A stretch of 64,000 nt of DNA from Spirochaetales bacterium. GTDB lineage: Bacteria > Spirochaetota > Spirochaetia > SZUA-6 > RPPD01. The stretch covers positions 1 to 64,000 of the forward strand of contig JAFGGG010000045.1 in NCBI GenBank assembly GCA_016930675.1, in the 5' to 3' direction. Under the pieces are notes generated by a model. It was not told the DNA's origin and ran no database searches. It was given only the letters and a program-made list of their open reading frames with translations. Made by a program: the position numbers and the translations under genes. Shown here in pieces: positions 34,865-40,834 of the stretch. The first letter of the stretch is position 1; every line of letters begins with the position of its first letter.

Positions 34865-35539
34865 ATGCGCATTCTTGTGATTGAAGATGATATGAAAATC
34901 GCCTCTTTTATTGTGAAAGGTTTAAAACAAGCGGGTTATGCGGCGGATCATATTCTTGACGGCCAAAGCGGTCTTGACCAGGCTCAAAGCGTCGATTATG
35001 ACGCATTAATTGTTGATATTATGCTTCCCCGGCTTGACGGTTATAGTCTTATCCAGCGGCTGAGAGAAAAAAAAGTCTTCACACCGTGCCTTATTTTAAG
35101 TGCCAAAAGCAGTTTGGACGATAAACTTAAAGGATTTCAGGCGGGTACGGACGATTATCTTACCAAACCGTTCTCTTTTTCCGAACTATTAGCACGAGTG
35201 CAGGCGCTTCTGCGCAGGTCCTCTCAGCAGCAACAGGCTGCAGTCCTAACGGCGGGCGATCTGCGCATGGATCTTTTTACGCGGCGGGTTACAAGAGGTT
35301 CCAAAGAAATTGAGCTCCAGCCGCGGGAGTACTCGCTGTTGGAATATCTGATGCGCAACAGCGGTAACGTTGTATCAAAAACCATGATTATGGAGCATGT
35401 GTGGGATTATCATTTCGATCCTGAGACCAATGTCGTGGATGTGCTGGTTCACAGACTGCGTACTAAAATAGAGAGAGGATTTGAAAAAAAAATACTGCAC
35501 ACGGTAAGGGGCGTGGGTTATGTACTTAAGATCGTTTAG
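34865..35539 (+). CDS. OmpR-family response regulator
   Basis: The 224-residue regulator has a receiver domain (1-120) with Asp8/Asp9, phospho-acceptor Asp51 in IVDIMLP, Ser79-type AKSS and Lys101 in TKPFSF, followed by an OmpR/PhoB winged helix (about 128-224: LQPREYSLLEYLM, VVDVLVHRLRTKI, VRGVGYVLKI). It overlaps the kinase gene by twenty bases, so the pair is coupled. A shared sequence box ahead of the downstream lipoprotein and HtrA genes is the likely binding site. The stress sensed is probably envelope protein damage, by analogy with CpxR/CssR. Confidence 0.92.
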   Translation: MRILVIEDDMKIASFIVKGLKQAGYAADHILDGQSGLDQAQSVDYDALIVDIMLPRLDGYSLIQRLREKKVFTPCLILSAKSSLDDKLKGFQAGTDDYLTKPFSFSELLARVQALLRRSSQQQQAAVLTAGDLRMDLFTRRVTRGSKEIELQPREYSLLEYLMRNSGNVVSKTMIMEHVWDYHFDPETNVVDVLVHRLRTKIERGFEKKILHTVRGVGYVLKIV

Positions 35540-36899
35540 ATTCCGCATTACCCTGCTGTTTACGGTCATATTCTTATTATGTTCTGTCATACTCTATGTT
35601 GCCTCATATATTATTATCTCTGCGTCCATAAAAAGTGAGGAATACGCGTTTCTGGAATCAAAACTGCTTGAATACTGGGCCATCTATCAGACCGGCAGTC
35701 TGGATCTGCTGATAAATGAAATCTCTTTGCAGCGCTTCATGAAAGAAGAGAAACTCTATATGGTCCGTATTGCCGGAAGATACAATAACACTCTCTACCT
35801 TTTTGTGCCGGACCATTGGCGCGGTTTCAATTTTTACGAACTGGAGAACCAACATTCAATCAAGGAAGGTGAAATAATCAGGCTGGCTTCGCATGAGACT
35901 GCTCAAGTATTAGATATATCTTCACTCTACCTTCCGGACCAGCATATTCTGCAGATTGGTATTTCCAACACACAGCGGGAAAAAACATTGGCACAGTTCA
36001 GACAGGCGTTTTTACTCGTCATTGTTCCTTTGCTTGTCCTCAGTTTTTTCGGGGGGATGATTTTTTCGTCACGCTTTTTATGGCCCGTGAAGAGTCTTAT
36101 AAATACGACCAAAGAAATTATCAGAACCGGTCGTATGAATATGCGAGTTCCTCCGCGCAAGAGTAAAGATGAACTGGATGAACTCATCGGGCTTTTCAAC
36201 CGGATGCTTGAAAAAATCGAGAACCTGATGAATAGCCTGCGCCAGACTTTGGATAATGTGTCGCATGAAATACGCACTCCCCTGACGCGTTTGCGCGGAA
36301 TAGCGGAAATGGCTTTACGCCCCCCTTCGCATAAAAAGAACATGCAGAAAGCGCTTGTGGAAGGTATTGCAGAATCAGAACATATTTTATATCTTTTGAA
36401 CACATTACTCGATATTTCACAAGCCGAATCCGGGATTATCACGCTTAATAAGCAACGGCTTGATATTTCGGAACTGATTCTGGATATGCTGGATTTTTAT
36501 CATTATCTCGCCGAAGAAAAAGACATTTTCCTGGATAAACAGCTTGCGCGCGGCCTTTTCATCTTTGGGGATCTCAACCGTATCCGGCAAATAATATCCG
36601 GCTTATTGGAAAATGCTTTTAAATACACGCCTGCCAAAGGGAAAATAGAGGTTGCTACCCGGACTGAAAATACGCAGGCCGTAATTCACATAAAGAATAC
36701 CGGGCCCGGAATTAAAAAAGACGAGCTTACGCACATCTGGAAGCGTTTTTATCGCAGTAAACATGCCGAGCAACAGCAGGGTATAGGTTTGGGCTTGAGT
36801 CTGGTAAAAGCAGTGGTTGAGGCGCATGGAGGAGAAATCAGCGTGCAAAGCAAAGTCGGGGAATACACTGCTTTTCAAGTAAAACTGCCTTGTCTGTAA
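35520..36899 (+). CDS. Membrane sensor histidine kinase
   Basis: The 459-residue kinase has two membrane helices (about 10-33 and 164-184) with an extracytoplasmic loop of about 130 residues between them. A HAMP domain follows (about 186-240: RFLWPVKSLINTTKEI), then the phosphorylated His249 in DNVSHEIRTPLTR and an ATPase domain with NAFKYTP, GPGIKKDEL and GIGLGLSL boxes. It should phosphorylate the regulator encoded just upstream. The periplasmic sensor loop has no recognised domain. It sits next to lipoprotein and HtrA genes, so misfolded envelope protein is a likely cue. Confidence 0.92.
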   Translation: MYLRSFRFRITLLFTVIFLLCSVILYVASYIIISASIKSEEYAFLESKLLEYWAIYQTGSLDLLINEISLQRFMKEEKLYMVRIAGRYNNTLYLFVPDHWRGFNFYELENQHSIKEGEIIRLASHETAQVLDISSLYLPDQHILQIGISNTQREKTLAQFRQAFLLVIVPLLVLSFFGGMIFSSRFLWPVKSLINTTKEIIRTGRMNMRVPPRKSKDELDELIGLFNRMLEKIENLMNSLRQTLDNVSHEIRTPLTRLRGIAEMALRPPSHKKNMQKALVEGIAESEHILYLLNTLLDISQAESGIITLNKQRLDISELILDMLDFYHYLAEEKDIFLDKQLARGLFIFGDLNRIRQIISGLLENAFKYTPAKGKIEVATRTENTQAVIHIKNTGPGIKKDELTHIWKRFYRSKHAEQQQGIGLGLSLVKAVVEAHGGEISVQSKVGEYTAFQVKLPCL

Positions 36900-36906
36900 T
36901 CCGCAA

Positions 36907-36945
36907 ACCTTTCAAAACTGTAATACTCCGGTCATACTTTTGTAA
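36907..36945 (+). promoter_or_regulatory. Regulatory box A, probable response-regulator site
   Basis: About 31 of 39 bases match the sequence at 37705-37743. It holds TGTAAT (36919-36924) and TGTAAA (36941-36946) with starts 22 bases apart, two helical turns. A TATCAA -10-like hexamer begins 27 bases after the second hexamer's start, at 36968, exactly as in box B. This suits an activator bound on one DNA face. Confidence 0.65.
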
Positions 36946-36992
36946 ACTTCTTTGCGTACATTAAAAGTATCAAAATTAGCAAGGAGGTTGCT

Positions 36993-37337
36993 ATGAAAAA
37001 GTTATTGTTATTGGGAGTTGGGATTTTGGTCATAAGCATTATGGCCTGCAGCGGAGGAAATCAGATCGCGATATCCGATAAAATGAACGATTTCCTGAGT
37101 ACACTTTCCGATACCAATTCCATTATTGCCGCGGCGGAAAAGTACGGATACTCTCCGGAGAATGTGCCGCTGGGAATATATGAATTGAAGGAACCCATTG
37201 TAACCAAGGTCGAAAAACAGGGTCAGCAGACGCTGTATTTCGTTAATGTTACCCACGGTGAGATCAAGGACGACATCATAGTGGTTTGGGACGGAGACGT
37301 GGTTGTAGATGTCAGAGACTATAAAGCCGCTGAATAA
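36993..37337 (+). CDS. Small lipoprotein of the envelope-stress cluster
   Basis: The 114-residue protein has a lipobox SIMAC (Cys19). The mature part has an alpha-helical segment (KMNDFLSTL...IIAAAEKYGY) and a C-terminal group of strands ending VVWDGDVVVDVRDYKAAE. No family is recognised. AGGAGGTTGCT sits before the ATG, and a regulatory box shared with the HtrA gene lies upstream, so it should be made under the same conditions as the protease. It may act as a chaperone-like or modulating partner of the protease or kinase; that is inference. Confidence 0.75.
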   Translation: MKKLLLLGVGILVISIMACSGGNQIAISDKMNDFLSTLSDTNSIIAAAEKYGYSPENVPLGIYELKEPIVTKVEKQGQQTLYFVNVTHGEIKDDIIVVWDGDVVVDVRDYKAAE

Positions 37338-37360
37338 TCCAAAAACATAATAACTCCGCA

Positions 37361-37389
37361 GGGCTTTCTATAAAGGAAGCCCTTTTTTT
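37361..37389 (+). terminator. Rho-independent terminator after the small lipoprotein gene
   Basis: GGGCTTTC and GGAAGCCC pair with one mismatch around a six-base loop and are followed by seven Ts. Confidence 0.8.
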
Positions 37390-37406
37390 ATTAATTGATA
37401 TGTTGT

Positions 37407-37664
37407 TTATTTCTGTGTTTGCTTTTTATCCGATAAAATGCTTAATAATTCTGCAAGGGCATTATTCTGCGCATGAAGATGTTTGAGGATTGCACGAACT
37501 TCTTCTTCCGATTTAAGATTAACCTGATAATCATTATGCGCCTCGATCCTGTCTTTTTCCGCGATTTTTTGACCGGTCGCTAATTTTTCCGATAACAGAT
37601 CATTTACATTTCTAATGGGCGGGTGTTTGTGTTCATAGGGAGGGGGAAATAATTCTTTTTTCAT
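37407..37664 (-). CDS. DUF1003 relative lacking its membrane segment
   Basis: The 85-residue protein begins like DUF1003 (PPIRNVNDLLSEKLATGQKIA) and ends like DUF1003 (DRIEAHNDYQVNLKSEEEVRAIL), but the two membrane helices that normally separate these parts are gone; they join directly at KIAE-KDRIEA. The reading frame is kept, and AGGA precedes the ATG, so a soluble protein may be produced. An in-frame deletion is the simplest history. It is divergent from the HtrA gene and shares its intergenic region. It could also be classed as a pseudogene. Confidence 0.65.
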   Translation of the reverse strand: MKKELFPPPYEHKHPPIRNVNDLLSEKLATGQKIAEKDRIEAHNDYQVNLKSEEEVRAILKHLHAQNNALAELLSILSDKKQTQK

Positions 37665-37704
37665 ATCTTTGTCCTAAAATAATTCTTATTCATCAGCCTT
37701 AAAA

Positions 37705-37743
37705 ACCTTTCAAAAATGTAATGTTGCGGTCATATTTCTGAAA
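37705..37743 (+). promoter_or_regulatory. Regulatory box B in front of the first HtrA gene
   Basis: It matches box A at 36907-36945. TGTAAT (37717) and TGAAAG (37739) again start 22 bases apart, and a TACAAT -10-like hexamer begins 27 bases after the second, at 37766. Confidence 0.65.
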
Positions 37744-37792
37744 GCTGACTCTGTTATGTTTTAAATACAATATGATAACCAAGGAGGTTGTT

Positions 37793-39298
37793 ATGACCGT
37801 CAAACATATAATTCAGCAGCGTTTTATCCAAATTGCGGGTGCGGCGCTTATTTTCTTTATCGCAGGAATATTACTGTCCCCCTATTTAATTTCGTCACAT
37901 GCTAACGGGATAATAAGCGGAAGTTCATTGAATCTTGAACTTCCTCATAATGCCAAGGACGGATTCGATTCCATGTCCAACATTCAGACAGCTTTGCAGG
38001 ATATTTCAGCCGGGGTTCTCCCCGCTGTTGTGGAAGTGTCTGTGGTGGATGTGGTAAAACAGGAGGTGCCTTCCGCAAATTCTCCTTTTGAATTCTTTTT
38101 TAGTCCTGATGGAACTAACCCCGCTCCGCAGCAGCGAGAGTTCCGGCGGGAGGGATTAGGATCGGGCATTATTGTGCGCCAGGTGGATAAAAACGTATAT
38201 GTGCTCACCAATAATCATGTGGTAAGTGAGGCGGATGAGATTACCATCAAATTCGCGGATAATAAGCAGTACAAAGCCACCTTGGTGGGAAAGGACGATA
38301 AAAAGGATCTGGCACTGGTAACGTTCGAAGCCCGGGAACACATTCCGACGGCGGTGCTGGGTGATTCCAATTCGGTCCAGGTGGGAGACTGGGTGCTGGC
38401 CGTGGGAAATCCATTGGGATTTGATTCCACAGTAACCCAGGGTATTATCAGCGCCATAGGAAGGAAGTCCCTGCCCAATTCCGAGATCGCGATGTATACG
38501 GATTATTTTCAGACAGATGCGGCCATCAACCGGGGTAATTCCGGAGGAGCGCTGGTAAATATCCACGGTGAGGTTATCGCCATCAACACATGGATAGCTT
38601 CACCCTCCGGGGGAAATGTGGGGATCGGATTCGCCATTCCCATTAATAACGCCAAATCGGCCATCGAGGATTTTATCACCAAAGGTAAAATTTCATACGG
38701 CTGGATAGGAGTGGAAAGCGGTGATCTTCCGGCTTCATTGCAGGAGGATCTTCATCTGACAGGTATCCAGGGCTCGTTTATATACGGTGTGTTTAAAAAC
38801 TCACCGGCCTATGAAGCAGGGATTCTGCCGGGTGATTTTATAACACGTGTTGACGGAGAAGAGATTAACGATATGATGCAGCTGCTGCTTACGGCAGGCA
38901 GTCTTGAACCGGGTAAAAAGACGGGCGTGGAGTTAATTCGTTACGGTAAAAAAATGAATCTTACTTTACAAATTAAGGAAAGACCGGCTTCAGAACAAGA
39001 GGCCGATGAGGCCGCTCTGCTGTGGCCGGGAATGGTGGCGTTAAAGATTACGGAGGATATCCGCGAACGCCTTCATCTGGCAAACACAATCGGTAATGTG
39101 ATTATCAGCAGAGTCGAACCGCACAGCCCGGCGGATGTGGCCGGTTTTCAGTCGGGGGATATCATAGGCGCGATAAATAATCGGCCTATCAATAACGCGA
39201 CCGATTTCTACAAAGCAATAAATGAATCGGGTGCGTCCGAAATAATGTTTAAACTCACCCGCGGCAACCAAGAGTTGCTGATGGGACTGGTTAAATAG
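37793..39298 (+). CDS. htrA: HtrA/DegP-family serine protease 1 (membrane anchored)
   Basis: The 501-residue protein has an uncleaved-looking N-terminal membrane helix (about 12-32), a trypsin-like domain with His142 (LTNNHVV), Asp172 (KKDLALV) and Ser250 (NRGNSGGAL), and two PDZ domains (about 300-390 and 410-500). It should degrade or refold damaged proteins in the periplasm. AAGGAGGTTGTT fixes the start. Regulatory box B precedes it, and a second HtrA gene follows after 17 bases. The Asp-rich loop before the protease (FFSPDG) resembles the LA loop of other HtrAs. Confidence 0.93.
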   Translation: MTVKHIIQQRFIQIAGAALIFFIAGILLSPYLISSHANGIISGSSLNLELPHNAKDGFDSMSNIQTALQDISAGVLPAVVEVSVVDVVKQEVPSANSPFEFFFSPDGTNPAPQQREFRREGLGSGIIVRQVDKNVYVLTNNHVVSEADEITIKFADNKQYKATLVGKDDKKDLALVTFEAREHIPTAVLGDSNSVQVGDWVLAVGNPLGFDSTVTQGIISAIGRKSLPNSEIAMYTDYFQTDAAINRGNSGGALVNIHGEVIAINTWIASPSGGNVGIGFAIPINNAKSAIEDFITKGKISYGWIGVESGDLPASLQEDLHLTGIQGSFIYGVFKNSPAYEAGILPGDFITRVDGEEINDMMQLLLTAGSLEPGKKTGVELIRYGKKMNLTLQIKERPASEQEADEAALLWPGMVALKITEDIRERLHLANTIGNVIISRVEPHSPADVAGFQSGDIIGAINNRPINNATDFYKAINESGASEIMFKLTRGNQELLMGLVK

Positions 39299-39315: not shown

Positions 39316-40773
39316 ATGACACATAAAATAAAACAGTTAAAAAGAATATCAGGCAGGGCGGCAGCCCTGGCCATGCTTATCTTGTTTTTAACTCTTACTT
39401 TAGGCGCCGATGGTGGAGACAGAAATGAACAGATAAGTCAGGGTGTTACCGCACTGGAAAATATTCAGAATGCCTTTCATCTTGTGGCGGGCAAGGTGAT
39501 ACCAACGGTAGTGGAAGTGGAAGTAACGGACGTTGTGAAAGCCCCGGCGTTTCAATCACCATTTGATTTCTTTTTTGACAGTCCTGAAAAGAATAATAGC
39601 CCGGACCAGCGCGAGTACAGGCGGTACGGTTTGGGTTCCGGTATTATCGTACAGAGAAACGGCGATAAGGTATATGTACTTACCAATTACCATGTGGCCG
39701 GAGAGGCCGAAGAAATAAATATCAAACTTTCCGACAAACGCGAGTTTAAAGCCTCGCTGGTGGGAACGGATGACAAAAAAGATCTGGCTCTTTTAGTGTT
39801 CGAAACCGGGGAGCAGGTACCCATTGCCGAGCTGGGCGACTCGGACGATATCCATGTAGGTGATTGGGTGCTGGCTGTGGGCAATCCGTTCGGTTTTTCT
39901 TCCACAATTACTTCGGGTATAATAAGCGCTGTGGGTCGTGAAAGTGCGGTTGGAGCGTCAGGCGGCAATTTCACCGAGTACATCCAGACGGACGCGGCCA
40001 TCAACCAGGGTAATTCGGGCGGAGCTCTGGTAAATATAAAGGGTCAGGTGATAGGGATTAATGCCTGGATTGCGTCTCCCAGCGGAGGAAATGTTGGTAT
40101 CGGTTTTGCAATACCCATTAACAATGCCAAACAGGACATTAAAGATTTCTTAACCAAAGGTAAGGTGGAATACGGCTGGCTGGGCATTACCATGGGAGGT
40201 ATTGTTCCGGAGGCAGCCCAGGACTTAAAAGTTGAGGGTAAAGGTGGCGCCCTTGTGTATGGTTTGTTTAAAGATTCGCCGGCGTTCAAGGCAGGAGTTC
40301 TCCCAGGCGATTTTATTACGGCGGTGAACGGTAAAGAGGTGAAGGATTCATCTCAGCTTTTACATATGATAGGCAGCCTGGCTCCGGGCGTCACCACCCG
40401 TTTGACCCTTATCCGTGACGCTAAGGAAATAAACATGAATGTTACTCTCGCCGTAAGAGGTGATGAAAAAACCATCATCGACCGGGCCGGAAAAATCTGG
40501 CCGGGATTTTCGGTTGTTCCCATCACTCCTGATATCGCCAAGCAGCTGAAACTCAAATCCGGCGCAAACGGAGTGGTAATTGCGCAGCTGGATAACGGAA
40601 GCGCCGCGCTTACTGCGGGTCTTAAGCCCGGAGACGTGATAATAAAAATAAACGAGAAAAAAGTGGAAAACGTGCGTGACTTTTACCGCGTCCTGAATCA
40701 GGAAAAGAACCACGATGTTCGCTTCCGCATTCTTAGGGATAACACGGAACTTATTATCGGCCTGGTCCGGTAA
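39316..40773 (+). CDS. htrA: HtrA/DegP-family serine protease 2 (exported)
   Basis: The 485-residue protein has a signal peptide (about 1-30), a protease domain with His126 (LTNYHVA), Asp156 (KKDLALL) and Ser234 (NQGNSGGAL), and two PDZ domains (about 285-375 and 395-485). It is a clear tandem duplicate of the previous gene, sharing domain order and a characteristic IGFAIPINNAK segment, but lacks the long N-terminal membrane anchor. It begins 17 bases after that gene (GAGGAGG site) and ends at a strong terminator, so the pair is one operon under box B. Confidence 0.93.
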   Translation: MTHKIKQLKRISGRAAALAMLILFLTLTLGADGGDRNEQISQGVTALENIQNAFHLVAGKVIPTVVEVEVTDVVKAPAFQSPFDFFFDSPEKNNSPDQREYRRYGLGSGIIVQRNGDKVYVLTNYHVAGEAEEINIKLSDKREFKASLVGTDDKKDLALLVFETGEQVPIAELGDSDDIHVGDWVLAVGNPFGFSSTITSGIISAVGRESAVGASGGNFTEYIQTDAAINQGNSGGALVNIKGQVIGINAWIASPSGGNVGIGFAIPINNAKQDIKDFLTKGKVEYGWLGITMGGIVPEAAQDLKVEGKGGALVYGLFKDSPAFKAGVLPGDFITAVNGKEVKDSSQLLHMIGSLAPGVTTRLTLIRDAKEINMNVTLAVRGDEKTIIDRAGKIWPGFSVVPITPDIAKQLKLKSGANGVVIAQLDNGSAALTAGLKPGDVIIKINEKKVENVRDFYRVLNQEKNHDVRFRILRDNTELIIGLVR

Positions 40774-40802: not shown

Positions 40803-40834
40803 GCCGGCGCTCTCTAAGGGCGCCGGCATTTTTT
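40803..40834 (+). terminator. Rho-independent terminator of the HtrA operon
   Basis: Perfect eight-pair stem GCCGGCGC/GCGCCGGC, nine-base loop, then ATTTTTT. Confidence 0.88.

Follow-up and report, generated by a model that had tools for sequence, protein, structure and literature searches.

A candidate four-half-site operator connects HtrA protease genes and a small lipoprotein gene with an adjacent two-component system in spirochaetes

Two-component control of HtrA proteases and related operators

In Escherichia coli the OmpR-family envelope-stress system CpxRA induces the HtrA protease DegP; the cpxRA genes are not adjacent to degP, and the CpxR box has the form GTAAA-N5-GTAAA. The spirochaete system described here is also of the OmpR family, but its kinase scores 119 on the CpxA model, for which the cut-off is 486. 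In Streptomyces, CutRS-htrA3 and CssRS-htrB likewise place HtrA proteases under two-component control on envelope or secretion stress (PMC12802291). The CutR site is TAWATAAA, and CutS has two invariant sensor cysteines (PMC12802291), whereas the nine kinases compared here share no invariant cysteine in this region. In mycobacteria, an HtrA-like protease (PepD) is both neighbour and target of a two-component system (MprAB; PMC3062566), the arrangement also proposed here; MprAB-pepD is actinobacterial, unlike the system analysed here.

The closest described operators belong to regulators of metal and oxidant responses. The AgrR site of Cupriavidus metallidurans is ATKACANNNNTGTMAT and, like the box described here, combines an inverted ATTACA-N4-TGTAAT core with an in-phase direct half-site (PMC7380067). 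AgrR is, again as here, an OmpR-type regulator of a related subfamily, and it acts by class II activation, to which the extra in-phase direct repeat contributes (PMC7380067). It serves silver resistance (PMC7380067), whereas in the spirochaete box a further two half-sites follow downstream in steps of 11 bases, and the main target is htrA. In E. coli the box shared by HprR and CusR reads CATTACAAAATTGTAATG (PMC9302797), and these regulators have, as here, one or very few targets adjoining the regulator genes (PMC9302797, PMC8249747). Those targets are cusCFBA and hiuH-msrPQ (PMC9302797, PMC8249747), and the regulator studied here, in contrast, falls below the cut-offs of the HprR and CusR models. 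Two-component control of HtrA and an operator of the AgrR/HprR type are of an already known kind. A literature search, with most subscription journals outside its reach, found no two-component control of HtrA in spirochaetes, and no description of this combination, of the four-half-site operator or of a spirochaete regulon of this sort.

Two boxes in a regulator-kinase-htrA cassette

The window, by which we mean the whole 64,000-nucleotide stretch analysed, carries on its forward strand an OmpR-type response regulator gene (34865..35539; receiver, Pfam Response_reg PF00072, and winged helix, Trans_reg_C PF00486) overlapped by a histidine kinase gene (35520..36899; Pfam HAMP, HisKA and HATPase_c). 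Downstream on the same strand lie the gene of a small putative lipoprotein of 114 aa (36993..37337), with a ribosome-binding site and lipobox recognised by eye, and an intrinsic terminator consisting of a 10-pair stem and a T run (37360..37389). These are followed by htrA1 (37793..39298) and htrA2 (39316..40773), which encode periplasmic serine proteases of the Do family; both products exceed the TIGR02037 cut-off of 416.2 (449.9 and 467.5 bits, respectively) and have trypsin-like (Trypsin_2, PF13365) and PDZ domains. The two htrA genes are 17 bases apart, are closed by a terminator at 40803-40827 and probably form a single operon. A reverse-strand open reading frame of 85 aa between the lipoprotein gene and htrA1 (37407-37664) matches the end of DUF1003 alone (PF06210, 59-99 of 103) and may be a remnant.

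The lipoprotein gene and htrA1 are each preceded by a copy of a 39-base repeat. A sequence-only reading of the window had put the agreement at about 31 positions; the copies at 36907-36945 and 37705-37743 match at 32 of 39. Identity extends to 36 of 46 positions over 36903-36948 and 37701-37746, and the best other match to either copy on either strand of the 64 kb reaches at most 27 of 46. The reported spacing is exact, with TGTAAT at 36919 and 37717 and TG(T/A)AA 22 bases further on, at 36941 and 37739. Two features of the box had been overlooked, namely its four-half-site structure and its class-wide scope. The family consensus is TTACA-N4-TGTAA-N6-TGWAA-N6-TGTAA with a -10 element (TAnnnT) 11 bases past the box, and the window boxes are diverged versions of it, in which TTTCA replaces TTACA and GGTCA replaces TGWAA. 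Box A (36910..36945, forward strand) comprises TTTCA at 36910, TGTAA at 36919, GGTCA at 36930 and TGTAA at 36941; box B (37708..37743, forward strand) comprises TTTCA at 37708, TGTAA at 37717, GGTCA at 37728 and TGAAA at 37739.

The -10 elements had initially been placed at +27 (TATCAA and TACAAT), and these hexamers proved not to be conserved. Instead, a TAnnnT lying exactly 16 bases past the first base of the final half-site is shared by 46 of the 55 related boxes. At this offset the window has TACATT (36957..36962, forward strand) in the lipoprotein promoter and TATGTT (37755..37760, forward strand) in the htrA promoter.

A genome search (3.23 Mb, 78% complete) for the full box, with as many as three mismatches allowed, returned these two positions and nothing else. 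A looser, family-level pattern, with up to two mismatches allowed, returned the two boxes at 0 mismatches and four sites at 2, three of them within coding sequence and one just 5' of a terminator hairpin; none of the four looks promoter-like. These genome-wide scans were pattern rather than matrix searches and may miss weaker sites in the genome. We also built a matrix from the 55 boxes outside the window that have an assigned target. Because the consensus used to choose these training boxes was derived from relatives with the window excluded, the window scores constitute an independent test. Box A scored 34.7 bits and box B 33.9 bits; the next-best window site scored 8.4 bits, and 100 random 64-kb sequences peaked at 14.8 bits. 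The best score 5' of the regulator gene was -11 bits, and autoregulation through a box before that gene was accordingly rejected.

Distribution of the box and its targets

Clear orthologues of the kinase are encoded in eight other genomes of the window's order, and in six of these htrA lies directly 3' of the kinase gene. The contig of one (G017) ends at that point, and in another (G002) approximately 5.4 kb of other sequence separates the two genes, with the box still 5' of htrA (31.6 bits). The relatives' box sits between the kinase gene and htrA of the conserved regulator-kinase-htrA cassette, and the sequence they have in common before htrA is ACATTACA-N4-TGTAAT-N5-TGTAA-N6-TGTAA, with a -10 element at a fixed distance. 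Counting the window's own genome, the box is present at htrA in 9/9 genomes of the order with a kinase orthologue. It is absent from the htrA loci of order genomes without the kinase, which score no more than 2.5 bits, and from non-cassette htrA paralogues, which score no more than 0.8 bits. Three families (f1, f2 and f5) each hold both states, kinase with box and neither. Among named genomes, a search with the kinase yielded just three unrelated kinases.

The class is very probably Spirochaetia, since the flagellar sheath protein family FlaA (PF04620), typical of spirochaetes, has members in the window's genome and in 8 of 10 relatives sampled, compared with 0 of 14 controls; PF00820, a lipoprotein family of Borrelia, had no matches and was uninformative. 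Across the class, the consensus at up to three mismatches was detected in 63 of 395 genomes (reversed control, 10), and kinase orthologues, with presence scored at E <= 1e-60, in 77 of 395. The kinase is present in 48/63 genomes with the box versus 29/332 of the others (Fisher p 2.5e-28, a value that ignores shared ancestry). As for the 15 of 63 box genomes without a kinase at this threshold, some are incomplete, some have a weak kinase beside the box and some of the boxes are chance matches. The 29 kinase genomes without a box at up to three mismatches include that of the window, the boxes of which have diverged.

The targets were surveyed for the 69 boxes with sequence at hand. Forty-one stand directly 5' of htrA, nine precede a GldA-type ABC gene with GldF/GldG-like genes downstream of it, six precede a MoxR gene that has DUF58 and VWA genes behind it, and one precedes the window's lipoprotein gene; the remaining 12 have no assigned target, several of them lying at contig ends. 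We know of no regulator for either the GldA/F/G-like ABC or the MoxR/DUF58/VWA operons. Loci of these two kinds that carry the box are L128, L129, L132-L135, L138-L141, L148, L150, L152, L159 and L161.

The regulator, its probable operator and competing explanations

The regulator has the domains expected of the OmpR family, a receiver with the phospho-acceptor Asp and a winged helix, and it best fits the CopR/CusR/HprR (CztR/SilR/CopR) subfamily, scoring 261.3 bits on TIGR01387, below the cut-off of 279.2. Four orthologues score 242-267 bits, likewise below it, and the kinase scores 216.5 bits on TIGR01386 (cut-off 292.55; orthologues 202-212). The acidic pocket, D51 and K101 of the regulator are invariant in seven orthologues. 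The ATTACA-N4-TGTAAT core is present in the relatives' boxes and has diverged in the window to TTTCA-N4-TGTAAT; in the cassette box of G021, CATTACAAAATTGTAATG stands letter for letter 5' of htrA. The type of operator is thus in keeping with the neighbouring regulator, which lies closest to the subfamily whose AgrR and HprR/CusR sites share the core of the box.

The sequence-only reading had nominated this neighbouring OmpR-family protein as the one that binds the boxes, and the genome comparisons favour the proposal. The box tracks the kinase, the cassette is syntenic, and the core agrees with those of the nearest characterised relatives of the regulator. Together these make it well supported, with a probability of roughly 0.85, that the neighbouring two-component system uses the boxes as its operators; it would serve many spirochaetes as a switch for envelope stress. 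Counting against this, the third half-site in the window, GGTCA, departs from the consensus, and no box stands 5' of the regulator gene; the 15 box genomes without the kinase and the 29 kinase genomes without a box also count against it, as does the lack of a correction for ancestry in the association.

We propose that the kinase would sense the state of the envelope and phosphorylate the regulator, which would then bind the four half-sites, that is the inverted TTACA-N4-TGTAA pair and two TGWAA half-sites. The latter, at 11-base steps, would run through the -35 region, and the bound regulator would recruit RNA polymerase at the -10 element 11 bases downstream in a class II arrangement, as at AgrR and PhoB promoters; we infer that it activates rather than represses. 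The ancestral target would be the htrA gene beside the kinase, with GldAFG-like ABC and MoxR/DUF58/VWA operons added in other lineages. In the present genome a lineage-specific lipoprotein gene would have been placed between the kinase gene and htrA, and as this gene and the htrA1-htrA2 operon both carry the box, they should be induced together.

It is possible, if unlikely, that the system instead responds to metals (copper, silver or zinc) or oxidants, in the manner of CusRS/HprRS, with HtrA as its effector, and not a sensor of misfolded envelope proteins. Such a response would suit the affinity of regulator and kinase to the heavy-metal subfamily and the unchanged E. coli HprR/CusR box in G021. 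However, both proteins remain under the subfamily cut-offs, the sensor regions of the nine kinases contain no invariant Cys, His or Met, and no metal-efflux gene lies behind any of the 57 boxes for which a target was assigned. The absence of such residues and targets suggests that an envelope-state signal is likelier than a metal.

The lipoprotein bears on a second alternative. Its N-terminus, MKKLLLLGVGILVISIMAC, fits by eye a signal peptide with a lipobox Cys, and its gene, which has a full box with a -10 element, a ribosome-binding site and its own terminator, looks like a real gene. No homologue was found in the 394 other genomes of the class, and no relative in Pfam, NCBIfam or the PDB. 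Of five AlphaFold models built without an alignment, one had a pLDDT of 69.6 and the other four lay at 41-47. A Foldseek search returned nothing below E 0.25, and we therefore claim no fold. The earlier suggestion that the lipoprotein belongs to the regulon thus holds for this genome and not for others. Boxes A and B have in common letters that are unusual for the box family (TTTCA and GGTCATA), so that box A is probably a local duplication, or both boxes changed along with the regulator. With the lipoprotein absent elsewhere and these letters shared, htrA might be the sole functional target and box A a recent local duplication before an incidental gene. We consider this doubtful, as box A matches box B in score and has its -10 element at the exact offset, and the lipoprotein gene has a ribosome-binding site and terminator of its own.

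Binding of the box by a different OmpR-family regulator, such as PhoB, is very improbable. Pho boxes are tandem 11-base repeats that end approximately 10 bases before the -10 element, and both the geometry of the present box and its TGTCA-like half-site, most of all in the GGTCATA of the window, recall them. The box nevertheless follows the presence of this kinase, not of a general one, and adjoins it in synteny; the inverted repeat at its core has the AgrR/HprR form, and no phosphate gene is among the assigned targets. Finally, chance or generic AT-rich promoter similarity has a negligible claim and was rejected, as the sequence-only reading had argued: the short pattern TGTAAT-N16-TGWAA, which it had offered together with a -10 element as a genome search, is unspecific by itself (11 matches versus 4 for the reversed control), but the full box is unique in the genome, the matrix scores far exceed random ones, and htrA-targeted boxes occupy the orthologous position in other families.

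We lean towards the broader view that this is a new envelope-stress regulon of many spirochaete families, in which a metal-sensor-like two-component system would act through a four-half-site operator on HtrA, a GldAFG-like ABC transporter and the MoxR-DUF58-VWA operon, with the lipoprotein as a local feedback or sensing partner, a role that is a guess. If so, one response would bring together a protease with an ABC transporter and with a MoxR/VWA operon whose role is unclear, and a metal-type operator would have been put to a different use. The defined operator, defined regulator and short target list make this directly testable.

Some related loci depart from this arrangement. A variant box, TCACA-N4-TGTAAA-N5-TGTAAA-N5-TGTAA, occurs in three loci that have no htrA cassette (L077, L078 and L083, from G022, G008 and G003, at approximately position 1501); in L077 and L078 it precedes putative lipoprotein genes, and a paralogous regulator may be the one that uses it. 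In family f39, two genomes have an extra full box with a -10 element directly 3' of htrA (L156, 6515; L157, minus strand, start 2361), with no recognised gene downstream. In family f6 (L037, L038, L040 and L041) the regulator gene directly follows what appears, by eye, to be a tRNA-Leu gene and may therefore be transcribed from the tRNA promoter.
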